DNA from: Streptomyces sp. CMB-StM0423
GTDB taxonomy: Bacteria > Actinomycetota > Actinomycetes > Streptomycetales > Streptomycetaceae
Assembly (NCBI RefSeq): GCF_002847285.1
Contig: NZ_CP025407.1
Coordinates: 930,001 to 994,000, forward strand
Direction: 5' to 3'
Length of the DNA: 64,000 bases
In this document: one piece after another, positions 12,504 through 64,000 of the stretch
Numbering within the stretch: position 1 is the first letter of the stretch
Layout of the letters: each line of letters starts with the position of its first letter
Position numbers and translations under genes: made by a program
Notes under the pieces: model-generated
Database searches by the model: none
The model's input: only the letters and a program-made list of their open reading frames with translations
What the model was told of the DNA's origin: nothing

Positions 12504-12562
12504 GCGGGCACTCCTGACGTGAGAGAGGGACGGTGCGAGCAGGGGGGCAGGGAGGGTGTGTC

Positions 12563-17069: not shown

Positions 17070-17115
17070 CAGGTGTCCTTCTGTAGTGAACGGGCGTCGT
17101 GACGGGTGCCGGCGG

Positions 17116-17961: not shown

Positions 17962-18046
17962 TGCTCCTCTGCTCCTGTCGTGTGTCGCTGAACTGTCATG
18001 CTGTGCGCGTGCGGTACGCGCCCGGGGCCGCCGGCCGGGCGGCGGG

Positions 18047-36034: not shown

Positions 36035-37548
36035 CGGGCGACGAGCTCCAGGACGCCGCGCGAGAACGGCTCGATGACGTCGAGGACGAAGCGCGGGAAG
36101 ACGCCGAGCAGGACGGCGAGCGCCAGCAGCGGGACGATCGCCGCCGCCTCGTGGGCGCGCAGGTCGGGGAACGGCCGCGGGGTGCCGGGCGAGTCGGGCA
36201 GCCGCAGCGGGCCGAGGAAGATCCGCTGCAGCGCCCGCACCAGCAGCGCGGCGGTCAGCAGGATGCCGAGCACGGCAAGCGCGGTCGCCACCGGGCGCGG
36301 CCCGAGGCTGCCGGCGAGGATCTGGAACTCGGCGATGAAGCCGGAGAACCCGGGCAGCCCGAGGGAGGCGAAGACGGCGACTCCGGTGAGCGCGGCGAAG
36401 ACCGGGGCGCGGGAGGCGACGCCGGAGTAGGCGCCCATGGCGTACGTGCGGCCGCGCTCGTGGAGGACGCCGGCGAGCAGGAACAGCGCGCCGGTCAGCA
36501 GCCCGTGGCTGACCATCTGGTACGTCGCCCCCGTCACGGCGAGCCGGCGGGCGGCCGCGGTGTCCTCGCCCAGCGCGGCGGCCGCGCCGAGGGCCAGGAG
36601 GATGTAACCCATGTGGTTGACCGAGGTGTACGCGATCATGCGCTTGAAGTCCGTCTGCGCCAGGGCCACCAGCGCCCCGTAGAGCACCGAGACGACGCCG
36701 ACGACCACGAAGACGGCCGCGTACGTGCGCCACGACCCCGGCAGCAGCGGCATCGCGATGCGCAGGAACCCGTAGGTGCCCATCTTCAGCAGCACCCCGG
36801 CCAGGATCGCCGAACCGGCCGCGGGGGCCTCGGTGTGGGCCGGCGGCAGCCAGGTGTGGAACGGCACCGTCGGCGTCTTGACGGCCAGCCCGAGGCCGAT
36901 CGCCAGCAGCACCAGGGCGCCGTAGCCGGACCGCCCGGCCAGCGGGTTCTCCTCGGCCAGGGTGACGATGTCGAACGTGTGCGGGGTGGCGGCGAGAGAG
37001 AGGCCGATGAAGCCGAGGAGCAGCGCGAGCGAGCCGAGGAAGGTGTAGAGGAAGAACTTCTGCGCGGCGCGCGCGGCACCCGGGTGGCCCCAGCCGGCGA
37101 TGACGAAGTACATGGCGACGATCGACAGGTCGAAGAAGACGAAGAAGAGGATGAGGTCGAGCGAGGCGAAGAGGCCGAGGCAGGTGGTCTCCAGGAAGAG
37201 GAAGAGGGCGGCGAACTCCCGTACCCGGCGGGTCTCGCGCAGCGCGTACAGCGCGCAGGCCGGGAAGAGGAGGGCGGTCAGGGCCAGCAGCGGGAGCGAC
37301 AGGCCGTCGACGCCGGTGTGGTAGCCGATGCCTGCGCTGGGGATCCAGCGGGCGTTCGTCTCGTACTGGATGCCGCCGCCGTGGTCGTAGCCGAGCCACA
37401 GCGCGACGGTCAGCGCGAGGACGGCGGCGGACACGGCGGCCCAGGCGAGGAGGAAGACCCGGCGGCCGGCGGCGCGCGGCACGCACAGCAACGCGCCGGC
37501 CGCGGCGGCGGGGAGGAAGACGATGGCCGTGAGCACGGGGGCAGTCAC
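36031..37548 (-). CDS. nuoM: NuoM-like proton-pumping subunit of complex I
   Basis: The 505-residue membrane protein has about 14 helices. Lys in GLAVKTPTVPFHTWLPPAHTEAP and the second-half segment TDFKRMIAYTSVNHMGYI mark the proton path. The TM5 acidic residue is Asp (FFVFFDLSIVAMYF) where NuoM normally has Glu. GTGA overlaps join it to NuoL and NuoN. It would move protons in the membrane arm. Confidence 0.92.
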   Translation of the reverse strand: MTAPVLTAIVFLPAAAAGALLCVPRAAGRRVFLLAWAAVSAAVLALTVALWLGYDHGGGIQYETNARWIPSAGIGYHTGVDGLSLPLLALTALLFPACALYALRETRRVREFAALFLFLETTCLGLFASLDLILFFVFFDLSIVAMYFVIAGWGHPGAARAAQKFFLYTFLGSLALLLGFIGLSLAATPHTFDIVTLAEENPLAGRSGYGALVLLAIGLGLAVKTPTVPFHTWLPPAHTEAPAAGSAILAGVLLKMGTYGFLRIAMPLLPGSWRTYAAVFVVVGVVSVLYGALVALAQTDFKRMIAYTSVNHMGYILLALGAAAALGEDTAAARRLAVTGATYQMVSHGLLTGALFLLAGVLHERGRTYAMGAYSGVASRAPVFAALTGVAVFASLGLPGFSGFIAEFQILAGSLGPRPVATALAVLGILLTAALLVRALQRIFLGPLRLPDSPGTPRPFPDLRAHEAAAIVPLLALAVLLGVFPRFVLDVIEPFSRGVLELVAR

Positions 37549-39455
37549 CTCACGAGGACGAAGACGGCGGCGAGGACGGTGAAGGCCGCGACGGCCTGGG
37601 CGAGATAGGTGTGCACCTGGCCGGTCTGCGGGCGGCGGGCGAGCCGGCCCAGCGCGCGGCTCAGGGCGCCGATGCCCTCGACGGCGCCGTCGACGGCCGC
37701 CTCCGCACCGCGGTTGACGCCGCCGGCGAGCCGGAGGGTGCCGCGGGCGAGGCCGTCGACGCCGCGGTCGAGCACCCGGTCGTCGAAGGCGGCCAGTGTG
37801 GCGGCGAGGCGGTGCACGGGGCGTACGAGAACGGCGCGGACCGCGGCCTCCAGGCCGAGCCAGGCGGACGCGGCTGCCGTGAGCCGGGCGGGCAGGGGGC
37901 TGCGGCGGTCGCCCCATGCCCAGGCGGCGGCGGACGCGGCGAGGGCGAGGGCGGCGGGGAGGACGAACTCCCAGGCGTACGGGGCGGCTTCGCCGCCCGC
38001 GCCGATCCGGTCGGCGAGGGCGGCGCGCGGCCCGGGCAGGGCGAGGACCGCCAGGGCCGCGACGGCGAGGGCGAGCGCGGCGCACGCCACTGTCCCGGGC
38101 GCGGGGAGGGTACGGGGGCCGCGGTCCGGTGGCCCGGCTCCGCTTCGTCCGGCCGCAGCCGCGGGCGGTGCCGGGGCCGGGAGTTGTGCGGGTTCGGGCG
38201 GGCGCCATACGTACCAGAGGGCCTTGACGGCGTAGACCGCCGAGACGACGGCCGCCGCCAGGCCCGCCGCGTACAGCGCAGGGCTGTGCTCCAGCGCCCC
38301 GGCCAGCAGCACGTCCTTCGCCGCCCACAGCGACAGCGGCGGCACCCCGGCGAGGCTCAGGGCGGCCACGGTGAACGCCGCTCCCGCGACCCGGTTCCGC
38401 CGGGCGGCGCCGCGCAGCGCGGGCAGCGTACCGGCGCCGAAGGCCGTCAGCCAGAAGCCGGCCACGAGGAACGCCAGGCTCTTCGCCGCGGCGTGCGCCA
38501 TGAGTTGCAGGGTGCCGCCGGTGGTCCCGCTCGCACCCGCGGCGAGCACCATGAAGCCGATCTGGGCGCAACTGGACGCGGCGAGGAGCTGCTTGAGGTC
38601 GCGCTGCGCCACCGCGACCAGGCCGAGGGCGAGCGCGGTGGCCGCGCCGGTCCAGGCCACCGTGTCGTCACCCCAGCCGGAGGCGGCGAGCAGCGGCTGC
38701 AACCGCAGCAGCAGGTACGCGCCGGCGACGACCATCGTCGCGGAGTGCAGCAGCGCCGAGACGGGGCTCGGGCCCTGCATGGCGCGTGACAGCCAGAAGC
38801 TGAACGGGAGTTGGGCGGACTTGCCCAGCGCCGCGGCGACGACGCCCGCGGTCAGCAGGTGCAGCCAGGGGGCGGGCACCTCGTGCAGCCGGTCGAGCGT
38901 GAGACCGGACGCCTGGCCGGTGGCGAGGGCCGCGCCGGCGGCGAGGTAGAGCCCCAGGTCGGCGGCCCGGGTGGTCAGGAAGGCGACACCGGCCGCCTCG
39001 GTCCGTACCGGATCGTGCCACCGGAAGCCGATCAGGGCCCAGGAGGTGGCGCCCATGAACTCCCAGCCCATCAGCAGCGCCGGCAGGGTCGTGGCGGTGA
39101 CGGTGATCAGCATGGCGCCGCCGAACAGCAGCATGAGGCCGAAGAAGCGGGCGCGCGGCTGCCCGGCGCCGGCGTCGCCGGCGCTGTGGACGAGCACGGC
39201 CAGGGTGACGGCGGCGACGGTCACCGCCATCAGCCCGGACAGCCCGTGCGCGCCGAGCCCGAACGGCAGCCCCGCCAGCAGCGGCGCCCGCACCGCCGCC
39301 GGGGCCGCGGCGGCGTAGCCGGCCAGGGCGAGGGCGGCGGCGGAGGCTCCGACGGCGACGGCGGGCGCGTACCGGTCGGCCCTGCGCCCGATCGCGGCGA
39401 GCAGCGTCCCGGCGGCGAGCGGCACGGCGACCAGCGCCCACAGCGCCGCGCTCAC
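37545..39455 (-). CDS. nuoL: NuoL-like proton-pumping subunit of complex I
   Basis: The 636-residue protein has about 16 helices. Key residues are seen in LLMGWEFMGATSWALIGF (TM5 Glu), ALGKSAQLPFSFWLSRAMQGPSPVSALLHSATMV (pump Lys and conserved His) and RDLKQLLAASSCAQIGFM (second half). After the core come a Pro/Ala-rich linker (about 420-445) and a C-terminal part that includes the amphipathic helix region (RGAEAAVDGAVEGIGALSRALG) and a last membrane helix, as in genuine NuoL. This separates it from Mrp antiporter subunits. It overlaps NuoK and NuoM by 4 bases each. Confidence 0.92.
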   Translation of the reverse strand: MSAALWALVAVPLAAGTLLAAIGRRADRYAPAVAVGASAAALALAGYAAAAPAAVRAPLLAGLPFGLGAHGLSGLMAVTVAAVTLAVLVHSAGDAGAGQPRARFFGLMLLFGGAMLITVTATTLPALLMGWEFMGATSWALIGFRWHDPVRTEAAGVAFLTTRAADLGLYLAAGAALATGQASGLTLDRLHEVPAPWLHLLTAGVVAAALGKSAQLPFSFWLSRAMQGPSPVSALLHSATMVVAGAYLLLRLQPLLAASGWGDDTVAWTGAATALALGLVAVAQRDLKQLLAASSCAQIGFMVLAAGASGTTGGTLQLMAHAAAKSLAFLVAGFWLTAFGAGTLPALRGAARRNRVAGAAFTVAALSLAGVPPLSLWAAKDVLLAGALEHSPALYAAGLAAAVVSAVYAVKALWYVWRPPEPAQLPAPAPPAAAAGRSGAGPPDRGPRTLPAPGTVACAALALAVAALAVLALPGPRAALADRIGAGGEAAPYAWEFVLPAALALAASAAAWAWGDRRSPLPARLTAAASAWLGLEAAVRAVLVRPVHRLAATLAAFDDRVLDRGVDGLARGTLRLAGGVNRGAEAAVDGAVEGIGALSRALGRLARRPQTGQVHTYLAQAVAAFTVLAAVFVLVR

Positions 39456-39757
39456 CCCTTCAACTCCGCGGCGTCGTCGGTCATGTCGACCTCGCGGGTC
39501 CTGAACAGGGCCGTGACCACGGCGAAGCCGACGGCCATCTCCACCGCCATCACGGTGACGGCCAGCACGACGAGCACCTGCCCGTCGGTGGCGGCGGGCG
39601 CGACGAAGTGCCAGACCGCGGCGGCGGCGAGGATGACGCCGCCGAGCATCAGCTCCAGGCCCATCATCAGCATCACGACGGACTGCTGCGAGAGCGCGCC
39701 GAACAGCCCGACGCAGAACAGCGCGGCGGCCACGAGCAGGAGCGGCTCCAGCGTCAC
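39452..39757 (-). CDS. nuoK: NuoK-like membrane subunit of complex I
   Basis: The 101-residue protein has three helices with the two buried glutamates of the family, Glu35 in MMGLELMLGG and Glu73 in MAVEMAVGFAV. The GTG start overlaps the NuoJ stop (GTGA). Confidence 0.93.
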   Translation of the reverse strand: MTLEPLLLVAAALFCVGLFGALSQQSVVMLMMGLELMLGGVILAAAAVWHFVAPAATDGQVLVVLAVTVMAVEMAVGFAVVTALFRTREVDMTDDAAELKG

Positions 39758-40317
39758 CGGCGCGCCCCCGGGCGTACGGGATCGGCGGGGCGGCGGGCGC
39801 ACAGGTCGTCGCCGAAGCGGTCGTAGCGGCCGCGGCCGGTGGCGAGCACGACGGTGGCGACGATGGTGGTGAAGAGGGCGAGGCCCAGCGTCATCATCGT
39901 CAGCATGTGCGGGCCCATCAGCGACTCGCCCAGGGCCATCGTCGGGTCGGCGTCGGGCTTCCCGCGCCGCCCCGGCCAGGGGGCCAGCACGATGCCGGCG
40001 GCCAGCAGGACGAAGACGGCGGCGCTGACCGCGGCCGCGCCCCGCTTGTTGTGCACCATCGACATGGGCAGCAGCCCGGCCGGGTTCATCATGAACATCA
40101 CCATGAACACGGCCATGAGGGCCATCTCGATCGTCATCATGAGGATGACGACGACGCCCAGGTAGTCGAGGCCGAGCCGGATGACCAGGCCGCCGACGCA
40201 GAGGAGGGAGAGCAGCAGCGCGTACGTCGCGCGGGCCATGGAGTCGTAGCGGAAGACCATGGCCCCGCTCGCCACTGCGGGCACGGCGAGCACCCAGAAC
40301 ACCACGTCATCGGGCAT
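39754..40317 (-). CDS. nuoJ: NuoJ-like membrane subunit of complex I
   Basis: The 187-residue protein has five helices. The family segment is LDYLGVVVILMMTIEMALMAVFMVMFM, read over helix three, where the usual pi-bulge motif lies. Met is notably abundant (more than 15 of 187). The 48-base gap to NuoH is the only real spacer in the group; no nuoI lies in it. Confidence 0.9.
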   Translation of the reverse strand: MPDDVVFWVLAVPAVASGAMVFRYDSMARATYALLLSLLCVGGLVIRLGLDYLGVVVILMMTIEMALMAVFMVMFMMNPAGLLPMSMVHNKRGAAAVSAAVFVLLAAGIVLAPWPGRRGKPDADPTMALGESLMGPHMLTMMTLGLALFTTIVATVVLATGRGRYDRFGDDLCARRPADPVRPGARR

Positions 40318-40365
40318 CTTTCCGGTCTCCCTCCGTCATGGATCGCGCGTTCACCGGTCGCGCCT

Positions 40366-41301
40366 TCACCGTTCGAGCACGACGATGGCGACGGCCAGAG
40401 CCTGGAGCAGGGTCAGCGGCACGAGCACCGTCCACGCGAACTCCACATAGCGCTCCATCCGCAGCGTCGGCAGCAGCCGCCGGCCGGCCACCAGCAGGCC
40501 GAGCACCGCGGCCGTCTTCAGCAGCGTCCACGCCCACGCCGGCAGCCACGGCCCGTGCCCGCCGCCGAGGAACAGCGGCACGCTGAACCCGGCGGTGACC
40601 ACCAGCAGCAGCCAGCGCCCGGCCAGCAGCACGAGCCGGTCCACGCCCGCGTACTCGGCGGCCGCACCGCCCGCGGCGTCCCGGCCGAGGGGGTGGTCGA
40701 ACGGGCCCCAGAAGGCCATCGCCAGCGCGCTCAGGAGGAACACGGCGAACGCCACCGGCATCCACACCGCGAACCACAGCCCGCGCTGCCCCGCCACCAC
40801 CTCGCCGACCCGCAGCGACTCCGCGCCGAGCGCCGCGGTGGTGAGGGCGAGCATGTGCGGCAGCTCGTACGCCAGGCCCTGGGCGAGGAAGCGGTAGCCG
40901 CCGACCAGTGACAGCGCCGAGTTCGGCCCCCAGCCGGCCAGCCACACCGCGGCCCAGGCCAGCGCCTCCATCGCGTTGAACCACACCACGCCCACGACCG
41001 GATCCGTGACGGCCCGGAACCCCCACGGGAGCACGGCGCCGGCGAGCACGGCGGCAACGGGGACGAGCGCGATCCCGATGCGGCCGAGCCACGGGTCGCC
41101 CGCGGTCGTACGCCGCGGCTGCTGGCCCAGCAGCCGCAGCCCCGCGCGCAGCGGCGCCGGCGCGGCGCGCAGGGGGCGGCCCGGGCGGCCGCCTTCGGCC
41201 GCGGCGGCCAGCACGGCGTCGAAGCCGGCGACGAGGACCGCCGCGGCGGCGAGGGCGAACGGCAGCAGCACGACGGCCCACACGGGCGCGGTGTCAGCCA
41301 T
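40366..41301 (-). CDS. nuoH: NuoH-like membrane subunit of complex I
   Basis: The 311-residue protein has about eight helices. The quinone-chamber loops are recognisable: GWGPNSALSLVGGYRFLAQGLAYELPHML with its conserved Glu, and WGPFDHPLGRDAAGGAAAEYAG followed by LLAGRWLLL. In canonical complex I, NuoH contacts NuoB, NuoD and NuoI; only an unusual NuoB/NuoD-like protein is encoded here, overlapping its start by 8 bases. Confidence 0.9.
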   Translation of the reverse strand: MADTAPVWAVVLLPFALAAAAVLVAGFDAVLAAAAEGGRPGRPLRAAPAPLRAGLRLLGQQPRRTTAGDPWLGRIGIALVPVAAVLAGAVLPWGFRAVTDPVVGVVWFNAMEALAWAAVWLAGWGPNSALSLVGGYRFLAQGLAYELPHMLALTTAALGAESLRVGEVVAGQRGLWFAVWMPVAFAVFLLSALAMAFWGPFDHPLGRDAAGGAAAEYAGVDRLVLLAGRWLLLVVTAGFSVPLFLGGGHGPWLPAWAWTLLKTAAVLGLLVAGRRLLPTLRMERYVEFAWTVLVPLTLLQALAVAIVVLER

Positions 41302-42511
41302 GCGCGGCCACCGCCAGTTCGTCGAGATCGGGGTCGAGGCTGGCCACGATCACGCGGGCGGACGTGAACTCGGCGCCGCGCAGCAGGCCGGGCAGGGCGT
41401 CCAGGAGCGCCTGCGACGGCGGCCGCGGGCCGTCGAGGCGGCCGCGCGGGCCCTGCTTGTCATGCTGGCCATGCGGGGCGAGGGGCCGGTCGTCGTCGAC
41501 GCCGGCGGCGCAGAGCGCGGCCTCGTCGAGCCAGGTGAGCAGCCGGTCGTACGCGTCGCCGTCCGCGGCCAGCGCGGGACCGGTCACCCCGAACCGCCGC
41601 GCCCGCGCGCCGGGCAACGCGCCGAGCCCGGCCGTCAGCTCCCGCAGCAAGCGCGACCGCCGCACGCGCCGCCCGAGCCGCCCCAGTTCCGCACCCCACT
41701 CCTGGCCCGGCGCCCCGTCGAGCACGGCGTCGCGCAACCGGCGGGCGCGGGCGGCGGGATCGGGCCACCCGGAGACGGCGAGCAGCCGCGCGATGCTGTC
41801 CAGGTGCGCGGCGCAGCACCGCCGGTGGGCGGCGCCGCGCCCGACCTCCTCGCCGCGGGCGGCCCGCAGCCACGGCTCGTCCCAGTACGGCAGTTCCTCC
41901 GCGGCGGGCGCGGTGATACGTACCTCGGCGTGCTGCACGACGTCCCCTTGCAGGGCGACGTCGAGCACGAGTCCGGCGGGCCAGTCGGCGAGCCCGGGCC
42001 CGAGCGGCAGATGCAGCCGGTCGAGACGGAGCCCGTCGCGGTCGTCGGCACGTTCGGCCATGGGCAACCCGGCGACGGGCCCGGCGTGAGGGAGATGCGC
42101 GGCGTGTGCATCGTGCGCGCCGTGGCCGCCAGGCCCCGCACGGAGCCGCCCGCGTGCCTCGCCCTCCCCCGGGCCCACGTGGCCCGCCACACCCGCACCT
42201 GCGGGTGCGGTCAGCGTCCGCAGCAGTCCGTCGAGCGCCGTCTCGACGCCCTCCGCTTCGGTCACCGCGGACCGGGACTTGGGATACGGGAGCTGCCGCC
42301 AGAGCGCGTCCGTCCACTCCCCCGCCCCGGCGCCGCCCGACCCGACGACCAGCAGCCCGCTCGCCGCAGCCGGGCTCGCGGCCACCGGCCAGCCACGTCG
42401 CCGTAGCCCCGCCTCCACCGCCAGCCGCGTCTTCGTACCTCCGGGGTGGACGGCCAGCAGGACGGCGGGATGCCGGGTGCCGATGCGGCGCAGCGCTTCC
42501 CTCAGGCCCAC
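41294..42511 (-). CDS. Degenerate NuoB-NuoD-like fusion protein of the nuo locus
   Basis: The 405-residue soluble protein starts at a GTG (42511) that overlaps NuoA by 10 bases. Residues about 15-100 resemble a NuoB fold: LLVVGSGGAGAGEWTDALWRQLPYPK follows the pattern of LLVxGxVTxxMxxxLRRxYxQMPEPK, but no cysteine remains for cluster N2. A Gly/His-rich linker follows. From about 165 the segment LHLPLGPGLADWPAGLVLDVALQGDVVQHAEVRI, read in two parts, matches the N-terminal sheet of NuoD. The next helical region (AHRRCCAAHLDSIARLLAVSGW) aligns loosely with the NuoD core. The quinone-site His of NuoD is not evident. It may be a structural plug or adaptor; this assignment is by eye. Confidence 0.55.
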   Translation of the reverse strand: MGLREALRRIGTRHPAVLLAVHPGGTKTRLAVEAGLRRRGWPVAASPAAASGLLVVGSGGAGAGEWTDALWRQLPYPKSRSAVTEAEGVETALDGLLRTLTAPAGAGVAGHVGPGEGEARGRLRAGPGGHGAHDAHAAHLPHAGPVAGLPMAERADDRDGLRLDRLHLPLGPGLADWPAGLVLDVALQGDVVQHAEVRITAPAAEELPYWDEPWLRAARGEEVGRGAAHRRCCAAHLDSIARLLAVSGWPDPAARARRLRDAVLDGAPGQEWGAELGRLGRRVRRSRLLRELTAGLGALPGARARRFGVTGPALAADGDAYDRLLTWLDEAALCAAGVDDDRPLAPHGQHDKQGPRGRLDGPRPPSQALLDALPGLLRGAEFTSARVIVASLDPDLDELAVAAHG

Positions 42512-42873
42512 CGCAGCGCGCCTTCGCGCCGGGCGTAGACGACGGCCGCGAAGAGGATGCTCAGAAAGAGGAACATCTCGACCACCGCCGGCGTGCCCAC
42601 CTCGCTGACGACGCGCACCCACGGGTACATGAAGAGCATCTCCATGTCGAATGCCAGGAAGATCATCGTCACGGGATACCAGCGCACGTGGAACCGGGAC
42701 GACGCGTGCTCCGCGGGCGGCAGTCCACCGCTGAACGGCCCCGATTCCAGCGCCCCCAGCCCGCCCCGCAGCCACGCGCCCAGCCCGTGCAGCGCCGCGA
42801 CCCCGCCGACCACCACGCCGAGCAGCACCGCCACCGGCTCCCATACCGCCACGCCGAGCATCATGCCCGACAC
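42502..42873 (-). CDS. nuoA: NuoA-like membrane subunit of complex I
   Basis: The 123-residue protein has three helices and the family segment FHVRWYPVTMIFLAFDMEMLFMYPW, including the Asp-Met-Glu of the second helix. The loop that in complex I contains a reactive Cys reads GPFSGGLPPAEHASSRF and has none. The start is uncertain: GTG at 42873 or ATG at 42864 or 42861. It is the first gene of the nuo group. The 92 bases upstream show no clear promoter. Confidence 0.9.
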   Translation of the reverse strand: MSGMMLGVAVWEPVAVLLGVVVGGVAALHGLGAWLRGGLGALESGPFSGGLPPAEHASSRFHVRWYPVTMIFLAFDMEMLFMYPWVRVVSEVGTPAVVEMFLFLSILFAAVVYARREGALRWA

Positions 42874-54048: not shown

Positions 54049-55134
54049 ATGCCACCGCTGCCCCCCGCTCGTCTCGTCCGCGTCGTCGAAGGGATTCGCT
54101 CCGCACTGCAGTCACTGACCCGCAAGATGGCGCCGCCGCCGTTCGCGCTGCTGGAGCTGGCGCAGGGCGCCATGGTCTCCCAGGCGATCTACGCGGCCGC
54201 AGAACTGCGGGTCGCGGAGGCGCTGGCGGACGGGCCGCTGCCGGTGGCGCGGCTCGCCGAGAAGACGGAGACCGACGCCGAGTCGCTGCGCCGGCTACTG
54301 CGCCTCCTCGCGACGTACGGGATCTTCACCGAGCGGAAGGACGGCCGGTTCGCGCTCACCCCGATGGCCCGGGCGCTGCTGCCGGACGCGCCGATGTCGA
54401 TGAACGGCATCGCCCTGCTGATGGGACATCCCACGCACTGGGAGGACTGGGCGCACTTCGCCGAGGCGGTGCGCACCGGAGAGCCGAGCCTGCCGAAGCT
54501 CCGCGGCATGGGCGCGTTCGAGTACCTGGAGGAGAACCCCGAGTACGGGGGCGTGTTCATCCGCGGCATGGGCTCGATGTCGGCGACGGAGACGGATCCG
54601 CTGCTCTCCGCGTACGACTTCTCCCGCTTCCGCACCGTCGTCGACTTCTGCGGCGGCCGCGGCGACTTCCTCGCCGGAGTGCTGCGCAAGTCGCCGAAGG
54701 CCCGCGGGGTGCTGTCCGACCCCCGGGTCGGGGAGAACGGCGCGGCGGCCTTCCTGGAGAAGGAGGGCGTCGCCGACCGGTGCACGATCGCGGACGGCGG
54801 GCTCTTCGACCCGGTGCCGGAGGGCGGGGACGCGTACGTCCTGAAGCACATCGTGCACGACTGGCCGGAGCCGCAGGCCGTGGAGATCCTCACCAACGTG
54901 CGCAAGGCGATGAACCCCGGCGGCCGGGTCCTCATCATGGAGATGGTGCTGCCGGACAAGCGCAACGCGCCGCACTCGGGCAAGCTCGTCGACCTGTGGC
55001 TGATGCTGCTCGTCGGCGGCCGGGAGCGGACCGAGGCGCTGTACGGGGAGCTGCTGGCGCAGGCGGGGCTGAAAGTGGAGCGGGTGGTGCAGACGCCCGC
55101 GGCCATCTCCGTCGTGGAGGCGAGCCGGATCTGA
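54049..55134 (+). CDS. SAM-dependent O-methyltransferase (acetylserotonin/DnrK type)
   Basis: The 361-residue protein has an N-terminal dimerisation winged helix (about 25-115; MVSQAIYAAAELRVAEAL, TDAESLRRLLRLLATYG). A class I methyltransferase domain follows with the SAM motif VVDFCGGRGDFL, where most relatives have VDVGGGxG. The catalytic His lies in LKHIVHDWPE and the helix GRVLIMEMVLPD follows. Such enzymes methylate phenolic hydroxyls of polyketides and related metabolites. The ATG at 54049 follows GGAGG. It may belong to the specialised-metabolite genes to the right. Confidence 0.9.
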   Translation: MPPLPPARLVRVVEGIRSALQSLTRKMAPPPFALLELAQGAMVSQAIYAAAELRVAEALADGPLPVARLAEKTETDAESLRRLLRLLATYGIFTERKDGRFALTPMARALLPDAPMSMNGIALLMGHPTHWEDWAHFAEAVRTGEPSLPKLRGMGAFEYLEENPEYGGVFIRGMGSMSATETDPLLSAYDFSRFRTVVDFCGGRGDFLAGVLRKSPKARGVLSDPRVGENGAAAFLEKEGVADRCTIADGGLFDPVPEGGDAYVLKHIVHDWPEPQAVEILTNVRKAMNPGGRVLIMEMVLPDKRNAPHSGKLVDLWLMLLVGGRERTEALYGELLAQAGLKVERVVQTPAAISVVEASRI

Positions 55135-55166: not shown

Positions 55167-55625
55167 TCATCCCGGCGGCTGCCCGGCCGGCCGCCGGGTG
55201 GTGGCGACGACCCGGTGCCACAGGTTGCAGAAGCCCGAGGCCAGGACGAGGGTGGCGAGCTGGCTCTCGTCGAAGTGGCGGGCGGCCTCGTGCCAGACGG
55301 CGTCGGGGACGGCGTCCGGCCGGTCGCCGAGCCGGGCGGCGCTCTCCGCCAGGAGCAGCGCCGCCCGTTCGGCGTCGCTGTAGTACGGGGCGTCGCGCCA
55401 GGCGGCGACGGCGGCGATCCGCTCGGGCGGCTCCCCCGCGGCGCGCATCTCGGCGGCGTGCCGGTCGACGTTCCAGCTCGCCCCGTTGATCTGGCTGGTG
55501 CGCAGATAGACGAGGAGCAGGGTGCTCTCGGGGACCCCGGACCGCTTCAGTGCCTCGCCCAGCGCCCGCAGCGCCGGTACGGCACCGGGTACCGCGGCCG
55601 TGGGACTGGCTATTCGCGCCTGCAT
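55167..55625 (-). CDS. AhpD/carboxymuconolactone decarboxylase-family protein lacking the Cys pair
   Basis: The 152-residue protein has the AhpD-like helical fold: LRTSQINGASWNVDRHAAEMRAAGEP is the normal active-site helix, followed by WRDAPYYSDAERAALLLAE and FNLW-type C-terminal helices (ASGFCNLWHRV). Peroxidase members carry Cys-x-x-Cys in this place (INGCxxCxxxH). Here the positions are Ala and Asn, so the alkylhydroperoxidase reaction is not possible, though the His is kept. GAGGAG precedes the ATG at 55625. It is convergent with the O-methyltransferase gene. Confidence 0.85.
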   Translation of the reverse strand: MQARIASPTAAVPGAVPALRALGEALKRSGVPESTLLLVYLRTSQINGASWNVDRHAAEMRAAGEPPERIAAVAAWRDAPYYSDAERAALLLAESAARLGDRPDAVPDAVWHEAARHFDESQLATLVLASGFCNLWHRVVATTRRPAGQPPG

Positions 55626-56933: not shown

Positions 56934-58382
56934 TCACCTCTTCGGCCCGGCGCCGCCGAGGGGCACTTCGCGTACGCACAGCGCGGCGAGCAGCGTCAGC
57001 GCGGCCGCGACGACCGCCGCCCAGAAGGCCGGGCGCACGCCCTCCGCGGCCGCCGCGACGGCGGGCGTGCCGTGCTCGCCGAGGCCGCCGGAGAGCGCGC
57101 CCATGACGGCGACCCCGAGGGAACTGCCCAGCGTGCGGCAGAGGGTGACGGCCGACGAGGCGGCGCCCATCTCCCGTACCTGGACGCTGCTCTGCGCGAC
57201 GGTGACGACGATCTGGGTCAGGAAGCCCATGCCGATGCCGAGCACCGCCATGAACACGCCCGTGGTCAGCCGGGAGGTGCCGGTGCCGAGCCGGGTGAGC
57301 AGGAGGGTGCCGGCCAGCATGAAGGCGCCGCCCGCCACCTGCGCGGACCGATAGCCCCCGGTGCGCGCCGTGTACCTGCCGGAGAGCTGGGAGACGAGCA
57401 GCAGCGTGGCGAGCATCGGCAGCAGCAGGAGCCCTGACCCGGTGGCGGACAGGCCCTGCGCCGCCTGCTGGTAGAGCGGCAGGTAGAGCACGGCGCCGAA
57501 CATCACGAATCCGGTGAGGAAGGCGAGCACCGACATCAGCGCGAAGTTGCGGATACGGAACAGGCGCAGCGGCAGCACCGGTTCCGCGGCCCGGCGCTCG
57601 GCGGCGAGGAAGCCCGCGAGCGCGACGACCGCGCCCCCGGCGAGGCCGAGGATCACCGGGGAGCCCCAGGCGTACTCGCCGCCGCCCCAGGTGGTGGCCA
57701 GCACGAGGGCGGTGACCCCGGCGGCCAGCAGGGCGGCCCCGGCGTAGTCGGCGCGTAAGGGCGCGCCGGCCCGCGGCGGCCGCGCCGGAACCCGTATCAG
57801 CAGGACGGCGAGGCCCATGGCCAGGGCCGCCAGCGGCAGGTTGAGCAGGAACACCCAGCGCCAGCCGAGGTGGTCGGTGACGAGGCCGCCGGCGGGCGGG
57901 CCGCCGATCATCGACACCGCCAGCACGCCGGTGATCATGCCCGCGTAGCGGGCGCGTTCGCGCGGGGGCACCAGCTCGCCGAGCACGGACATGGCGCCCA
58001 CCGCGATGCCGCCCGCCCCCAGGCCCTGGAACGCCCGGAACGCGATGAGCTGGGGCATGTCCTGGGCGGCCGCGCAGAGCGCGGAGCCGGCGGCGAACAC
58101 GCCCAGCGCGGCCAGCAGCACCCCGCGGTGGCCGTGCAGGTCGCCCAGCTTGCCCCACACGGCGGTCGTCGCGGCGGCGGCGAGCGTGTACGCGGTGACC
58201 GTCCACGCCAACTGCCCGGCGCCGCCCAGGTCCCCGACGATCGTCGGCATGGCCGTGCCGATCACCATGGTGTCCAGGGACGACAGCAGCAGCGCGAGCA
58301 ACAGCGGCAGCAGCGTGACGCGGATGCCGGCCCGGAGGCGGGCCCGCGGTTCGGGCGCGGCGCGGTCCGTCGTGGCGGCCAC
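56934..58382 (-). CDS. MFS drug exporter, DHA2 (EmrB/QacA) family
   Basis: The 482-residue protein has about 14 helices. The motif LDTMVIGTAMPTI in the first helix and the loop WGKLGDLHGHRGVLL are standard for 14-helix drug:proton antiporters; the helix-5 motif is GPPAGGLVTDHLGWRWVFLLN, read over two segments. It would export a hydrophobic compound. It starts 3 bases downstream of the multicopper oxidase stop, so the two genes form an operon. Confidence 0.92.
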   Translation of the reverse strand: MAATTDRAAPEPRARLRAGIRVTLLPLLLALLLSSLDTMVIGTAMPTIVGDLGGAGQLAWTVTAYTLAAAATTAVWGKLGDLHGHRGVLLAALGVFAAGSALCAAAQDMPQLIAFRAFQGLGAGGIAVGAMSVLGELVPPRERARYAGMITGVLAVSMIGGPPAGGLVTDHLGWRWVFLLNLPLAALAMGLAVLLIRVPARPPRAGAPLRADYAGAALLAAGVTALVLATTWGGGEYAWGSPVILGLAGGAVVALAGFLAAERRAAEPVLPLRLFRIRNFALMSVLAFLTGFVMFGAVLYLPLYQQAAQGLSATGSGLLLLPMLATLLLVSQLSGRYTARTGGYRSAQVAGGAFMLAGTLLLTRLGTGTSRLTTGVFMAVLGIGMGFLTQIVVTVAQSSVQVREMGAASSAVTLCRTLGSSLGVAVMGALSGGLGEHGTPAVAAAAEGVRPAFWAAVVAAALTLLAALCVREVPLGGAGPKR

Positions 58383-58385
58383 GGC

Positions 58386-59861
58386 CTAGCCGATCCTCAT
58401 CGTCGCCATCATGCCCATGGCGGAGTGGTCGAGCATGTGGCAGTGGTACGGGAAGTCGCCGCGGTAGGTGTCGAAGGACGCCTGGAGCCTGACCGTCTCG
58501 CCGGGGGCGAGGAACACGGTGTCCTTGAGCCCCGACTCGGCCGGCGACGGCGGCCGCCCGCCGCGCTCCAGCACCCGGAACTGCACCAGGTGCAGGTGGA
58601 AGTTGTGCGCGGCGACGCGGTTGGAGTTGGTGACGGTCCACACCTCGTGGGCGCCGTAGGTGACGGCGGCGTCCACCCGCCCCGGGTCGTAGACCTTCCC
58701 GTCGATGTACGCGGCGGGCGGGGTGCTGCCGTCCTCCGTCATGCTGAGGTCGACGGTGCGGCCGGCGGTCGGCTCGGGGCGGTCGGGCAGGGCGCGCAGC
58801 CGGGCGGGCACGGAGCTGGGGTCGGCGGCGGTGCGCACGATGTCGAAGCGCAGCACCTCGCCGGTCTCCTCAGGCGTGCCGGGGCCGACGGCGTTGCGCA
58901 GCACGACGCTGCTGCCGACGGGGTAGCGGGAGAAGTCCACGACGACGTCGGCGCGTTCGCCCGCGGAGAGGAAGACCCTGTCGGTGGGGTACGGCGCGGT
59001 GAGCAGCCCTCCGTCGGAGCCGATCTGCTGGAAGGTGCCGCCGTCGGCGAGCCGCAGGTCGAAGGAGCGCACGTTGGCGCTGTTGAGCAGCCGCAGCCGG
59101 TACTTGCGGGCGGCGACCGGGAAGTACGGGTACGGGACGCCGTTGGCCAGGAGGGTGTTGCGGGCGCGGTCGCCCATCGCGTAGACGAGCGCGCCGGTGT
59201 CGTCGAAGCGGGCGTCGCGCACGGCGATGACGACCTCGTACTGCCCGCCGGGCAGGGGCAGCGCGGACTCGGTGTCGTCGGTCAGCAGGTAGGAGCCGGA
59301 AAGACCGCGGTAGACGTGCTCCGCCTCCATGTGATGCGCGTGGTCGTGGTACCAGAGCGGGGCGTGCGGCTGCTGGTTGGGATAGAAGTACAGCCGCTCG
59401 GCGCCGGGGGCGATGGTGTCCATGGGGTGGCCGTCGTTGACCGGGTGCACGGCGGCGCCGTGCAGGTGGACGGCGGTCGGCATGCCGAGGGTGTTGCGCT
59501 GCCTGATGACGACGGGCCCGCCGCGGCGGGCCCGGATGGTCGGTCCGGGGAAGTGGCCGTTGTAGGTGAGGACGTCGGTGGGCAGGCCCGGCAGGATCTC
59601 CTTCCGCACCTTCTTCATCGTGACGTGGTACACGGACGCGCTGCCGACGGTGTACGTGGGCGCGAGGACGGGCGGGACCGGCATCGGGACGGCGAACTTC
59701 GCGACCGCGGCGCCCGCGGTCGCGGTGCCGCCGGGGGCGGTGTCCGGGGCGTCGGACGCGGCCCGGTGCGCCGCGTTCGCGAGCGGGATCAGCCCCGCGC
59801 CCGTGAGCGCGGTGCTCCCGGCGGCGACGCCGACGGCGAGGGCCCTGCGGCGGGTGACCAT
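58386..59861 (-). CDS. Tat-exported multicopper oxidase
   Basis: The 491-residue protein has a Tat signal (VTRRRALAVGVAAG) and three cupredoxin domains. The copper ligands are seen in AVHLHGAAVH (about 135), LWYHDHAHHM (about 175), AHNFHLHLVQF (about 415) and the last cluster YHCHMLDHSAMGMM (about 470), which contains the type 1 Cys, the His-Cys-His bridge and an axial Met. It oxidises phenols, aminophenols or metal ions with O2. Phenoxazinone- or bilirubin oxidase-like enzymes have this layout. Co-transcription with an exporter suggests a role in making or detoxifying a secreted product. Confidence 0.93.
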   Translation of the reverse strand: MVTRRRALAVGVAAGSTALTGAGLIPLANAAHRAASDAPDTAPGGTATAGAAVAKFAVPMPVPPVLAPTYTVGSASVYHVTMKKVRKEILPGLPTDVLTYNGHFPGPTIRARRGGPVVIRQRNTLGMPTAVHLHGAAVHPVNDGHPMDTIAPGAERLYFYPNQQPHAPLWYHDHAHHMEAEHVYRGLSGSYLLTDDTESALPLPGGQYEVVIAVRDARFDDTGALVYAMGDRARNTLLANGVPYPYFPVAARKYRLRLLNSANVRSFDLRLADGGTFQQIGSDGGLLTAPYPTDRVFLSAGERADVVVDFSRYPVGSSVVLRNAVGPGTPEETGEVLRFDIVRTAADPSSVPARLRALPDRPEPTAGRTVDLSMTEDGSTPPAAYIDGKVYDPGRVDAAVTYGAHEVWTVTNSNRVAAHNFHLHLVQFRVLERGGRPPSPAESGLKDTVFLAPGETVRLQASFDTYRGDFPYHCHMLDHSAMGMMATMRIG

Positions 59862-60091: not shown

Positions 60092-61123
60092 GTGCTCATC
60101 AACCAGATCGTGCGCGCCGAGCGGGCGGGCGGCTCCGACACCCTGCTCGCGCTGCGCGAGGCGGTCCGCGACCTGCCCGTCGAGAAAGTGCCCGTCGCCA
60201 GTCTGGTGGTCACGTTCAGCCCCCGCGCCGCGGGCGTGGACGCCGGCTACGCGCTGGCGCTCTCCGAGGTGGAGGCGGAGCTGCCGCCGATCCTGGTGCA
60301 CCGCGGGCGGATGGCCGTGATCGACGGCCGGCACCGGCTGCGGGCCGCCCGGCTCAACGGCGCCGCGTCCATCGGCGCGCGGTTCTTCGACGGCTCGGAG
60401 GGCGACGCGCGGCTGCTGGCCGTGGCGCTGAACGTGGCCCAGGGGCTGCCCCTGTCGCGGGACGACCGCATCGCCTCCGCGCTGCGCATCCTCACCGCCA
60501 GGCCGCAGTGGTCGGACCGCTCCGTGGCGGCCGTCGCCGGGCTGTCCGCGCGGACGGTCGCCGAGATCCGCGGGCGCGCCCGGGGGCAGGCGCACGACGC
60601 GCCGCGGATCGGGCTCGACGGCAGGCGCAGGCCGTTCCGTTCCGCGCAGGGCCGGGAGCTGGCGGCGAAGCTGCTGGGCGAGGAGCCGGGGGCGTCGCTG
60701 CGGTCGATCGCCCGGCGCGCCGGGATCTCGCCGGCCACCGTCGCCGACGTACGGGACCGGCTGCGCCGCGGCGACGACCCCGTACCGGTGGGGCAGCGGG
60801 AGGAGCCCGCGGCGGAGCGGCCGGCCCGCGAGCCGGCGCCGCCGCCCGTCCCCGCGCTGTCGCCCGGGGAGCTGTTCGTCATCTTCGACTCGCTCTGCCG
60901 CGACCCCTCGCTCCGGATGACGGAGACGGGCCGTACGGTCCTGCGCATGCTCGACGCCTGCCACCTCATCGCGCGGGACCGCGAGAAGATCACCGTGAAC
61001 CTGCCGCCGCACTGCAAGGAGCAGTTGGCCGAGCTGCTGCGGGGTTATGCGGGGCTGTGGCGCGACCTGGCCGGCGAGCTGGGCGCGGGACGCTCACCGG
61101 GGGCGGTCGGCGCCGTACGCTGA
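60092..61123 (+). CDS. StrR/ParB-like transcriptional regulator
   Basis: The 343-residue protein has an N-terminal ParB/sulfiredoxin-like domain (about 28-110: LPVEKVPVASLVV, ELPPILVHRGRMAVIDGRHRLRAARL). Next come a helix-turn-helix region (about 130-170: SRDDRIASALRIL, SVAAVAGLSARTVAEI) and a second HTH (about 205-235: SLRSIARRAGISPATVADVRDRL). ELPPILVH and VIDGxHRLRAA are the wording of the StrR activators of antibiotic clusters, rather than of chromosome-partition ParB. A Pro/Ala linker and a C-terminal helical domain follow. The GTG follows GGAGGAG. It probably activates genes of a specialised-metabolite cluster. Confidence 0.88.
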   Translation: MLINQIVRAERAGGSDTLLALREAVRDLPVEKVPVASLVVTFSPRAAGVDAGYALALSEVEAELPPILVHRGRMAVIDGRHRLRAARLNGAASIGARFFDGSEGDARLLAVALNVAQGLPLSRDDRIASALRILTARPQWSDRSVAAVAGLSARTVAEIRGRARGQAHDAPRIGLDGRRRPFRSAQGRELAAKLLGEEPGASLRSIARRAGISPATVADVRDRLRRGDDPVPVGQREEPAAERPAREPAPPPVPALSPGELFVIFDSLCRDPSLRMTETGRTVLRMLDACHLIARDREKITVNLPPHCKEQLAELLRGYAGLWRDLAGELGAGRSPGAVGAVR

Positions 61124-61140: not shown

Positions 61141-61170
61141 GACGGCACGCGCCGCCCGGCGCGTGCCGTC
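61141..61170. terminator. Hairpin between convergent regulator genes
   Basis: GACGGCACGCGCCG at 61141-61154 is complementary to 61157-61170 (14 bp, 2-base centre). It lies between the StrR-like gene and the convergent response regulator and touches the latter's stop codon. Confidence 0.75.
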
Positions 61171-61996
61171 ACGCGTGGCCCAGCTTGAACCCCACCCCCC
61201 GGACGGTCACGACCCAGCCGCTGCCGCCGAGCTTGCCGCGCAGGCTGCTGACGTGCGTGTCGACGGTGCGCCGCGACCACGAGTCGCCCCAGACCCGCTG
61301 CAGGAGCTGCTTGCGCGGGATCACCGTGTCCGGGTGGGAGGCGAGCAGGCAGAGCAGGTCGAACTCCTTGCGGGTGAGCGCGACTTCCGTACCGCCGACG
61401 GTGACCCGGCGGGAGGCCACGTCGATGTGCAGCCGGCCGTGCCTGAGGTGCCGGCCCGCCGCGGGCTGCGGCGGCCGGGAGCGGCGCAGCACGGCTTCGA
61501 TACGGGCCATCAGCTCGCGCATCCCGTACGGCTTGGTGACGTAGTCGTCCGCGCCGGCCTGGAGGCCGAGCACGCAGTCGAGTTCGGACTCCCGGCCGGT
61601 GACGATGATGATCGGCACATGGCTCACCGCGCGGATCCCCCGGCACACCTCCAGGCCGTCGAGGTCGGGGAGTTCGAGGTCGAGGAGCACCATCTCCGTG
61701 TCCTGGTGCGCCCGCAGCGCGGCGCCGCCCTGCTTCGCCCCGACCGGCTCGTGCCCGTAGCGGCGGAGCTGGGCCATCAGCGACTCGCCCGTGTCGGGGT
61801 CCCCGTCGACCACCAGGATGCGCCGGCCCGCGGGCCCCGCGGCCGGCGCGGCTCCCCCGGCGCCCGCCCCCGCGGCTGCCGTGACTGCGGTGGCTGCCGT
61901 GACCGGGGACCCGTCGTCCGCCGGGACCCCGGGCGCGGTGGTCCCGGTGACCGGCGGGCGTAGGCCGGGCAGCACCTGCGACGTCATCTGAGTCAT
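61169..61996 (-). CDS. Orphan OmpR/PhoB-type response regulator
   Basis: The 275-residue protein has an Ala/Gly/Pro-rich N-terminal extension (1-57), a receiver domain (58-170; LVVDGDP, phosphorylation site Asp106 in VLLDLELPD, Thr in IIVTGRE, Lys in YVTKPYG) and a winged-helix domain (about 180-275; LTRKEFDLLCLLASHPDTVIPR, RTVDTHVSSLRGKLG). No sensor kinase is adjacent. Such orphans in metabolite clusters often act without a dedicated kinase. GGGGGAGG precedes the ATG at 61996. Confidence 0.9.
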   Translation of the reverse strand: MTQMTSQVLPGLRPPVTGTTAPGVPADDGSPVTAATAVTAAAGAGAGGAAPAAGPAGRRILVVDGDPDTGESLMAQLRRYGHEPVGAKQGGAALRAHQDTEMVLLDLELPDLDGLEVCRGIRAVSHVPIIIVTGRESELDCVLGLQAGADDYVTKPYGMRELMARIEAVLRRSRPPQPAAGRHLRHGRLHIDVASRRVTVGGTEVALTRKEFDLLCLLASHPDTVIPRKQLLQRVWGDSWSRRTVDTHVSSLRGKLGGSGWVVTVRGVGFKLGHA

Positions 61997-62064
61997 GCCT
62001 CCCCCGTGTGGTGTGCTCGGCAGGTGGGCGGACGGGCCGCGGGCCGCGGCACCGCACGCGGTGG

Positions 62065-62469
62065 TTACGTGCTGCGCACCCATGCGGAGTCGTGCCGGGT
62101 GAAGCCGATGTGCGGGTAGTAGTCCCGGGCGGCGGGCGCGGACAGCAGGACGAGCTTGGCCGCCGGGGCCTCCGCCATGGTGGCGTCGATGAGCGCGCGG
62201 CCCACGCCCGCACGCTGGTGGGCGCGGACGACGGCGATGTCGGAGAGGTACGTGACGTAGGCGAAGTCCGAGACGCTGCGCGCGAGGCCGATGAGCGCGC
62301 CGCCCTCGTCGCGCGCGACGACCACGAGGTTGGCCTCGCGCACCATCGTGGCCATCCGCTCCCGGTCGTCGACCGGCCGCCGCTCGCCGAGCCCCGAGTC
62401 CCGGTAGACCGCCAGTACTTCGTCGAGGTCCAGCGAGGCGCCGGCGGCGCGTTCAGTCTTCCAGTGCAC
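62065..62469 (-). CDS. GNAT-family N-acetyltransferase
   Basis: The 134-residue protein has the GNAT fold in its compact form: LVVVARDEGGALIGLARSV (strands 2-4), YLSDIAVVRAHQRAGVGRALID with the acetyl-CoA pyrophosphate loop QRAGVG (about 85-100), and AARDYYPHIGF with the Tyr that usually protonates CoA. It acetylates an amine. It overlaps the lyase gene by 17 bases, so the two are co-translated, which suggests that it acts on a product or intermediate of the lyase. In the fosfazinomycin/kinamycin hydrazine routes an acetyltransferase of this class accompanies a lyase of the same family. Confidence 0.88.
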   Translation of the reverse strand: MHWKTERAAGASLDLDEVLAVYRDSGLGERRPVDDRERMATMVREANLVVVARDEGGALIGLARSVSDFAYVTYLSDIAVVRAHQRAGVGRALIDATMAEAPAAKLVLLSAPAARDYYPHIGFTRHDSAWVRST

Positions 62470-63742
62470 CGAGCTTCTCCAATCGGTCGCGGATCACGTC
62501 GTGACGGGTCAGGAAGCGCTCCGGGCGCAGCTCGCCGGCAGTGATGCCCTCGCCCGCGAGGGTGGCGCCGAAGTGCTCCCCGGTGGCCACCGTACGGTCG
62601 GCGGCCCGCTGCACGGCGCGGTACGCGCGCTCGCGCTCCGCGCCGTCGCCGGTCAGCAGCCCGGCGAGGACCGCGGAGCTGTGCACGAGGCCCGCGGTCT
62701 GGTCGATGTGGGCGCGCATCCGCTCGGGGTGGACCCGCAGCGAGGCGACGAGTTCGGCGGCCTTCGTCGCCTGGAAGTGCGCCACGGTCAGGCTGTCGGG
62801 GAGGATCACCCGCTCGACCGACTGGTGGGCGAGGTCCCGCTCGTGCCAGAGCGGGACGTTCTCCAGCGCAGCGGTGGCGTGGCCGCGCAGCAGCCGCGAG
62901 AGGCCGCACAGCCGCTCGCTGGTGGTCGGGTTGCGCTTGTGCGGCATGGCACTGGAGCCCTGGTACGCCGCGGACCTGCCCTCCTCCACCTCCGCGACCT
63001 CCGTGCGCTGGAGCAGCCGCAGCTCCAGGGCGAGTTGCTCCACGCACGCGCCGAGGGCGGCGACGGCCTGGAGCAACTGGGCGTGCCGGTCGCGGGCGAC
63101 GACCTGGCTGGGGCAGTCCTCCACGCCGAGCCCGAGGGCCGCGCAGACGTGCGCCTCCACCGCCGGGTCGATGAGCGCGTACGTACCGACGGAGCCCGAG
63201 ACCGTGCCGACCGCCACCGCGTCGCGCGCCGCCGCCAGCCGGCGCAGCGACCGGTCGACGCCGAACGCGAAGCCGGCCAGCTTGTGCCCGAAGGTGGTGG
63301 GCTCGGCGTGCACGCCGTGGGTGCGGCCGATCATCACCGTGTCCCAGTGCTCCAGCGCCCGGCCGACCAGCGTGCGCCGCAGCTCCCGGGCGGCCCCGCT
63401 GAGCAGGTCGCATGCGGTGGCCAGGGTGTGGCCGAGGGCGGTGTCCACCAGGTCGTAGCTGGTCATGCCGAGGTGCACCCAGCGAGCCGAGGCGTCGGGC
63501 AGGCCCTCGCAGTAGGCGGCGAGGAAGGAGAGCACCTCGTGGTCGCGCTCCTGCTCCAGCTCCGCGACCCGCGCGGCGGCGGGCACCGGCGCTCCGCGCA
63601 TGTCGTCGACCACCCCGGCGGGGACGCGGCCGAGCCGCTCCTGCGCCTCGGAGGCGAGGATCTCGACCCGTACCCAGGTCTCGTACCGTGCCTGATCGGA
63701 GAAGAGCCGCCCCATGTCCGGCAGCGTGTAGCGGGGAATCAT
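62453..63742 (-). CDS. Adenylosuccinate lyase-family enzyme
   Basis: The 429-residue protein of the fumarase/aspartase superfamily has the PurB layout: MIPRYTLPDM at the start, MTSYDLVDTALG, the catalytic His region in GRTHGVHAEPTTFGHKLA and the flexible signature loop GSSAMPHKRNP with its catalytic Ser. The segment WHERDLAHQSVERVILPDS follows. It could be ordinary PurB of purine synthesis. However, it is co-encoded with a GNAT enzyme and a glutamine synthetase-like gene and sits beside specialised-metabolite genes, so a paralogue that releases fumarate and an amine or hydrazine is equally plausible. The ATG at 63742 fits family starts; a GTG lies three codons upstream. Confidence 0.85.
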   Translation of the reverse strand: MIPRYTLPDMGRLFSDQARYETWVRVEILASEAQERLGRVPAGVVDDMRGAPVPAAARVAELEQERDHEVLSFLAAYCEGLPDASARWVHLGMTSYDLVDTALGHTLATACDLLSGAARELRRTLVGRALEHWDTVMIGRTHGVHAEPTTFGHKLAGFAFGVDRSLRRLAAARDAVAVGTVSGSVGTYALIDPAVEAHVCAALGLGVEDCPSQVVARDRHAQLLQAVAALGACVEQLALELRLLQRTEVAEVEEGRSAAYQGSSAMPHKRNPTTSERLCGLSRLLRGHATAALENVPLWHERDLAHQSVERVILPDSLTVAHFQATKAAELVASLRVHPERMRAHIDQTAGLVHSSAVLAGLLTGDGAERERAYRAVQRAADRTVATGEHFGATLAGEGITAGELRPERFLTRHDVIRDRLEKLGALED

Positions 63743-63780
63743 CTGTGCCACCCGTCCCGTCGTCGTTCGTCGTACGCCTC

Positions 63781-63825
63781 GGATTCGGTACGCCCGGATT
63801 CGGTACGCCCGGATTCAGTACGCCT
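63781..63825. repeat. Three tandem 15-bp repeats
   Basis: GGATTCGGTACGCCC occurs at 63781-63795 and 63796-63810, and with two changes at 63811-63825. Part of a fourth copy precedes them. The last copy contains the final codons and stop of the glutamine synthetase-like gene. Confidence 0.85.
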
Positions 63826-64000
63826 CGAAGTACTCGCGCTGCTCCCAGTCGGTGACCTCGCCGGCCGGCGCGCCGGTCGCCGCGCACCAGGTCTCGAAGC
63901 GGTCGAGTTCGCTCTCCTTCAGCCGCGTCAGACAGGCCGTCAGCGGTGCGCCGAGCAACTGCTCGGCCCGGCCCGCGCGGAACGCCTCGAACGACTCGCG
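63815..64000 (-). CDS. C-terminal end of a glutamine synthetase-like protein (cut by window edge)
   Basis: The last 61 residues are visible, ending at a TGA (63815-63817). The segment LTRLKESELDRFETWC and the end VTDWEQREYFEAY match the C-terminus of type I glutamine synthetase-fold enzymes and their gamma-glutamyl-amide relatives, which typically end ExxRxxxxVTxWExxxY. Catalytic residues lie outside the window. The gene precedes the lyase by 72 bases on the same strand, so GS-like, lyase and GNAT are likely one transcript. The function could be to join glutamate to ammonia, an amine or hydrazine. Confidence 0.75.
   Translation of the reverse strand, partial: RESFEAFRAGRAEQLLGAPLTACLTRLKESELDRFETWCAATGAPAGEVTDWEQREYFEAY

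Follow-up and report, generated by a model that had tools for sequence, protein, structure and literature searches.

The three genes at the right-hand edge of a 64,000-nucleotide stretch of Streptomyces sp. CMB-StM0423 DNA (the window; positions 930001-994000 of a genome assembled as one contig of 8.03 Mb) encode homologues of glutamine synthetase (GS), adenylosuccinate lyase and GNAT acetyltransferases. Our analysis places these genes at the end of a complete kinamycin-type cassette that very probably builds glutamylhydrazine. An AlpH homologue, also encoded in the window, would couple the glutamylhydrazine to a ring-contracted angucycline, which would lead to a diazobenzofluorene.

An earlier note, made from the letters of the window, had described the trio as lying on one strand with a 17-base overlap and had read it as a hydrazine (N-N bond) module with an unseen cluster to the right. 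We called genes on genome positions 984001-1044000 with a codon-position script and obtained 55 open reading frames (ORFs), approximately 34 of which were scanned against Pfam. All three ORFs were found on the minus strand, and their Pfam families agree with the description (Table 1). The lyase starts with GTG at 63751, and an ATG lies further in, at 63742. The GS gene runs past the end of the window. Since 60 residues from its window part, scanned alone against Pfam, matched no family, its identity was proven by the extension beyond the window, where the completed protein matched Gln-synt_C (E 3.4e-56). The genome holds four further GS-family genes.

The predicted cluster was indeed found to the right: an amidase, KinJ and KinI homologues and aromatic polyketide synthase (PKS) genes lie approximately 1.3 to 24 kb past the window end. 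The order ferredoxin-KinJ-amidase-GS-lyase-GNAT on one strand is the exact kinI-J-K-L-M-N order of the cassette whose proteins bear the names KinI, KinJ, KinK, KinL, KinM and KinN in PMC6470958, PMC6133997 and PMC12154649. GS, lyase and GNAT are homologues of KinL, KinM and KinN, and the reading as a hydrazine module is supported.

KinJ is described in PMC12154649 as a heme enzyme that converts nitrite and aspartate to hydrazinosuccinate in partnership with the ferredoxin KinI. The homologue shares 67% identity with SAM23877_7494 from S. ambofaciens ATCC 23877, a kinamycin producer, and 95% with the KinJ of strain WAC06738; in a PDB sequence search it found nothing above chance level (all E values 0.92 or higher). 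The candidate active-site residues given for KinJ in PMC12154649 include C468, M498, H504, H541, R497, R551, R570, N501 and K356 (for two of these, R496 and R550 are also written there). All nine tested residues were found at a constant offset of +7, the next best offset between -40 and +59 giving 3 of 9, and all nine are invariant in a 15-row alignment. The adjoining ferredoxin gene encodes a 2[4Fe-4S]-type protein with an N-terminal extension and its motifs at residues 38-48 and 69-79. We conclude that the KinJ homologue is likely a KinJ/FzmP-type heme enzyme, with N-N bond formation as its predicted activity.

The cluster also reaches to the left, to the AlpH gene, which the earlier note had overlooked. 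According to PMC10477347, AlpH joins glutamylhydrazine to the polyketide with no need for S-adenosylmethionine, and its activity is impaired by changes at M174, K266, H267, H270 and D271. The homologue matched the AlpH structure 8h3t at E 1.3e-141 and 474.9 bits; it keeps all five of these residues (offset 26) and carries the DFCGG motif. An ordinary O-methyltransferase at this position was ruled out by the AlpH match, whose bit score is about double that of the next PDB entry (241.1). AlpH relatives (52-98%) occurred in all 20 of the cassette-bearing genomes described below.

To place the lyase, we used a 93-row tree, from which the rows L002, L091 and L099 (copies of own-genome rows) had been removed before building. 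The window lyase fell inside the KinM clade (support 95/99), with the cassette lyases. Its sister row was Streptomyces sp. CNH099 (L012; 99/58, a branch that is not firm), and the shortest path led to S. olivochromogenes (L011). Separate groups were formed by same-genus PurB (13 rows), PurB of the order's other families (8) and CreD-like lyases (16). The junction between the KinM clade and the PurB of the order is unsure because long branches join the two sets, as the tree tool warned. A second purB, which the note had asked for, exists as a separate housekeeping gene at genome 7734547-7735887 (7.73 Mb; 418.1 bits), and its product groups with the PurB of the genus (100/100). The window lyase was also considered as a nitrosuccinate lyase (CreD) and rejected: it reached just 113.7 bits with NF052556 (cut-off 650), and the CreD clade is separate.

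When named genomes were searched with an alignment of KinJ sequences, 66 loci were obtained, each covering at most 10 kb on either side of KinJ and including two distant ones, L075 (26%) and L076 (partial match, 38%). The six-gene set was present in 44 of the 66, each of them with the GNAT homologue (at least 60% identity) in the same locus, and 25 of the 66 had the collinear same-strand order found here. The lyase and GNAT genes share 17 bases in the window (62453-62469), and the aligned ends overlap in 25/25 collinear loci; the overlap is therefore not due to chance. Of the 44 six-gene loci, 36 showed AlpH (17 of the 25 collinear ones) and 24 showed AlpJ; these counts are lower bounds because the loci are short. 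Of 392 same-genus genomes drawn evenly, 24, the own genome among them, had a KinJ relative at E 1e-20 or lower, and no genome in this draw carried S. ambofaciens' own KinJ (best 75%). PMC13061610 mentions 469 diazo clusters.

Several loci deviate from the six-gene set. The stretches read of L029, L030, L033 and L041 have matches to KinJ, ferredoxin, GS, lyase and CreE/CreD and none to the amidase or GNAT; this shorter cassette might need another route than the one through acetylhydrazine. Four Nocardia loci (L059, L060, L061, L064) hold KinJ, the ferredoxin and a KinM-like lyase, whereas GS, amidase and GNAT found no match within the stretch that was read; this lyase might release free hydrazine. 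The KinJ cassette of Dactylosporangium aurantiacum (L068) gave no ferredoxin match at the cut-off used and has lower-identity PKS-type genes nearby. L098 (genome G012), with a KinM-like lyase of 65% identity and one internal stop, is perhaps a decayed cassette.

A scaffold synthase was expected to the right and is present as a type II PKS, which besides the ketosynthase-alpha and chain-length factor genes comprises an acyl carrier protein, a ketoreductase, cyclases and two CabE/PgaE-type oxygenases. The intact AlpJ-like oxygenase matched 5f9p ('Anthrone oxidase-like protein') and reached 234.7 bits with 9kdp ('Anthrone monooxygenase'), both of which we take to be AlpJ-family structures. The FAD oxygenase gene beside it is, by its position, presumably AlpK.

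In the hydrazine route published in PMC6133997 and PMC10477347, KinN first acetylates hydrazinosuccinate, KinM then eliminates acetylhydrazine, KinL loads this on glutamate and KinK finally removes the acetyl group; the earlier note had let the lyase act first, and its order has to be corrected. We propose that nitrite would be made from aspartate by a distant CreE/CreD-type pair acting in trans, and that KinJ (heme) and KinI (ferredoxin) would join the nitrite nitrogen to aspartate to form hydrazinosuccinate. KinN would acetylate this compound, KinM is predicted to release acetylhydrazine and fumarate from it by elimination, KinL would load acetylhydrazine on glutamate and KinK would remove the acetyl group. 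The type II PKS and the AlpJ-like oxygenase would form the benzofluorene, to which AlpH would attach the hydrazine, and oxidation would give the diazo group. Gene content, order, family membership and key residues are observed; the enzyme activities and the product are inferred from them. The most likely product is a kinamycin-type diazobenzofluorene, since production of kinamycin D has been reported for S. melanogenes WPF1 (PMC12696212), and another strain of the species, JCM 4398 (L062), has a collinear cassette, with no AlpH within the stretch seen.

Table 1. Genes of the cluster; positions with two dots refer to the window, all others to the genome
Feature	Position	Strand	Remarks
AlpH-type O-methyltransferase-like enzyme	54127..55134	+	Best PDB match AlpH 8h3t; predicted coupling of glutamylhydrazine to polyketide
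AhpD-like small protein	55167..55625	-	Flanked by exporter and AlpH; counted in from its position, and assigned to the family because it resembles the CMD-domain gene at genome 1002362
Exporter-like membrane protein	56934..58382	-	ORF; export predicted
Multicopper oxidase, accessory	58386..59861	-	Cu-oxidase domains; Tat-like leader read by eye
StrR-like putative activator	60092..61123	+	Weak HTH Pfam matches only
OmpR-type response regulator	61169..62083	-	Response_reg and Trans_reg_C; near cassette; putative regulatory role
KinN-type N-acetyltransferase (GNAT), 134 aa	62065..62469	-	Acetyltransf_10, E 4.8e-11; predicted to acetylate hydrazinosuccinate
KinM-type lyase (adenylosuccinate lyase family), 432 aa	62453..63751	-	Lyase_1, E 1.8e-44; SSAMPHKRNP stretch; KinM clade 95/99
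KinL-type glutamine synthetase homologue, 3' part	63815..64000	-	Whole gene genome 993815-995269 (window 63815-65269), 484 aa
KinK-type amidase	995315-996643	As trio	
KinJ homologue, 655 aa	996739-998706	As trio	No Pfam or NCBIfam match
KinI-type ferredoxin, 109 aa	998703-999032	As trio	Two CxxCxxCxxxC motifs
FAD oxygenase	999287-1000795		Beyond cassette
Chain-length factor	1013305-1014543		Type II PKS
Ketosynthase-alpha	1014540-1015811		Type II PKS
AlpJ-like oxygenase, intact	1016172-1016867		292.8 bits to PDB 5f9p
FAD oxygenase beside AlpJ homologue	about 1016900-1018377		L007 minus strand, start 14377; frame lost, runs into next gene

CreE/CreD-like genes had been expected in the cluster and were located elsewhere. 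A nitrosuccinate lyase gene at genome 5653867-5655243 (5.65 Mb) scored 777.2 bits with NF052556 (cut-off 650), and this is the only place in the genome where the family was found at E 1e-100 or better. It overlaps the end of a gene for a 651-aa CreE-type FAD enzyme. The FAD enzyme matches PDB 8cp2 ('FAD-binding protein') at E 1.1e-155, which we take to be an aspartate N-hydroxylase (for this role compare the abstract of PMC10404684). The genes flanking the pair, read by eye, show no biosynthetic cluster.

We investigated whether nitrite genes accompany the cassette in other genomes. Five of the 25 collinear loci contained CreE or CreD homologues. For the genome-wide search, we chose 20 cassette genomes by hand, namely 13 of the 23 further same-genus genomes with KinJ (those at 61% or above) and 7 from the 66 named loci. 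Two of them, G282 and G406 (the S. hyaluromycini locus L016), share coordinates and are probably one genome. Nitrosuccinate lyase exceeded the cut-off in 19 of the 20; in 10 of these 19 it lay on the KinJ/AlpH contig within approximately 45 kb, and the other 9 had it at a different place or on a separate contig, a placement that in draft genomes is no proof of distance. Its distance to the cassette was 4.7 Mb in G191 and 5.3 Mb in G307. Among 117 same-genus genomes without KinJ (121 minus G000, G088, G102 and G114, which have KinJ and all exceed the cut-off), 28 had the lyase above the cut-off. Fisher tables of 19/20 and 20/21, each against 28/117, gave p about 1e-9, with relatedness not corrected. 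PMC12154649 states that most KinJ clusters and genomes lack CreDE, whereas nitrosuccinate lyase was usually present in our hand-picked same-genus set.

Several observations speak against the pathway proposed here. The nitrite genes lie outside the cluster, approximately 4.66 Mb away (CreE was sought beside the lyase, not genome-wide). In the FAD oxygenase gene at the AlpK position, the reading frame is lost approximately 60 residues short of the expected end. The curated purB model TIGR00928 of NCBI accepts the window lyase (368.5 bits, cut-off 326.2), and the nearest solved structures of the lyase are ordinary PurB (1f1o, 337.2 bits; CreD, 93.6). Finally, the product class is a prediction from the cassette, AlpH, the AlpJ-like gene and the PKS genes.

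The frame loss raises the question of whether the pathway has decayed, so that only shunt products or nothing would be made. Either the sequence contains an error at this point or a tailoring step is broken. The copy in a sister cluster, G191, is intact (486 aa), which is consistent with decay here. However, the six cassette genes, AlpH and the PKS genes align end to end with those of G191 at 94-100% identity, a degree of conservation that fits a functioning pathway, and the frame loss may be a sequence error. We regard decay as unlikely. The two clusters are not alike throughout: against the exporter, G191 gave just a 77-residue match, and its genes between the PKS and KinI differ, the FAD oxygenase there being only 61% identical.

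Among known systems, kin (S. murayamaensis) and alp (S. ambofaciens) share with this cluster kinI-J-K-L-M-N, AlpH, the AlpJ-like oxygenase, the type II PKS and PgaE-type FAD oxygenases. The differences seen are the distant CreE/CreD pair (alp2F/2G adjoin the cluster in S. ambofaciens; PMC12181624), the inserted multicopper oxidase and the frame-shifted oxygenase at the AlpK position. Four Salinispora loci (L037, L051, L052, L066), taken from genus and content to be lomaiviticin (lom) clusters, share the six enzymes and the AlpH and AlpJ homologues but have the lyase and GNAT on the strand opposite to KinI-L. The fosfazinomycin cluster (fzm) shares, judging from the papers, homologues of FzmN, O, P, Q and R; it makes a phosphonate instead of a polyketide and lacks a ferredoxin gene (PMC12154649).

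The fluostatin cluster (fls) shares the diazo cassette (PMC6470958) and AlpH (PMC10477347), yet its main products lack a diazo group (PMC6470958), and it has no Alp1W homologue according to PMC10477347. The cassette described here could likewise serve a fluostatin-like, mostly nitrogen-free benzofluorene with minor N-N products, as in Micromonospora rosaria SCSIO N160. That fls holds the same cassette although its dominant fluostatins are free of the diazo group favours this possibility, and M. rosaria DSM 803 (L035) has KinI, KinJ, KinK and KinL homologues, its stretch being too short to show the lyase. Gene order and the KinM tree, on the other hand, put the window with the Streptomyces collinear loci and not with the Salinispora/Actinomadura type, in which lyase and GNAT are reversed, and the S. 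melanogenes data above point to kinamycins. A fluostatin-like main product thus appears improbable, somewhat more so than decay.

On the left flank, the response regulator claimed beside the trio was confirmed by its domains; the claimed StrR-like neighbour gave only weak HTH matches, and we take its product to be StrR-like. Homologues of the response regulator (at least 45%) occur in 26 of the 66 loci, the best at 80%. The StrR-like gene has counterparts at 60% in L065 and 59% in L017, with the same regulator order. The exporter-like protein, presumably of the MFS, has homologues (60-64%) beside the regulators in L012, L017 and L065. The AhpD-like gene has a 54% homologue beside AlpH in L014 and a 99% homologue in G191.

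The cluster's oddest feature is the multicopper oxidase gene placed between its StrR-like regulator and the exporter. A homologue (at least 45%) was found in one of the 66 loci (L028, 54%), at another place, upstream of KinI. L017 and L065, which have the regulator-exporter order, gave no match to it, and neither did G191. One could imagine a new diazobenzofluorene finished extracellularly, in which the Tat-type oxidase would either turn an exported hydrazone or hydroquinone into the diazo compound by oxidation or couple two units, with nitrite supplied in trans by the stand-alone CreE/CreD pair; we consider this a long shot.

Least credible is that the lyase is an ordinary purine-pathway PurB in an accidental neighbourhood: TIGR00928 and the best solved relatives would fit, but the separate purB and the position in the KinM clade rule out a housekeeping role, and the six-gene context recurs in 44/66 loci. 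Since the TIGR00928 equivalog accepts a KinM-type lyase, automatic annotation would name such a protein adenylosuccinate lyase.

Other genes were noted in passing. To the right, a peptidase C26/GATase-type gene (genome 1001458-1002237), which might be the counterpart of Alp1W, has relatives in 10 of the 66 loci, and a second AhpD-like gene (1002362-1002775) encodes a carboxymuconolactone decarboxylase domain; AhpD-like homologues recur in L012, L013, L014, L028, L070 and L072. An alpha/beta hydrolase (1007198-1008055) had no PDB match at E 1e-5. Elsewhere in the window, a minus-strand gene run at 9677-18910 resembles, by eye, a meta-cleavage aromatic degradation operon, and a membrane-gene run at 34604-42864 resembles a second, partial NADH dehydrogenase (nuo) operon.

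Taken together, the cluster of CMB-StM0423 adds a new example to a type of pathway that is already known, and a guess from raw sequence becomes the prediction of a specific natural product. Our findings also suggest that the nitrite source may sit megabases from the cassette and yet go with it.

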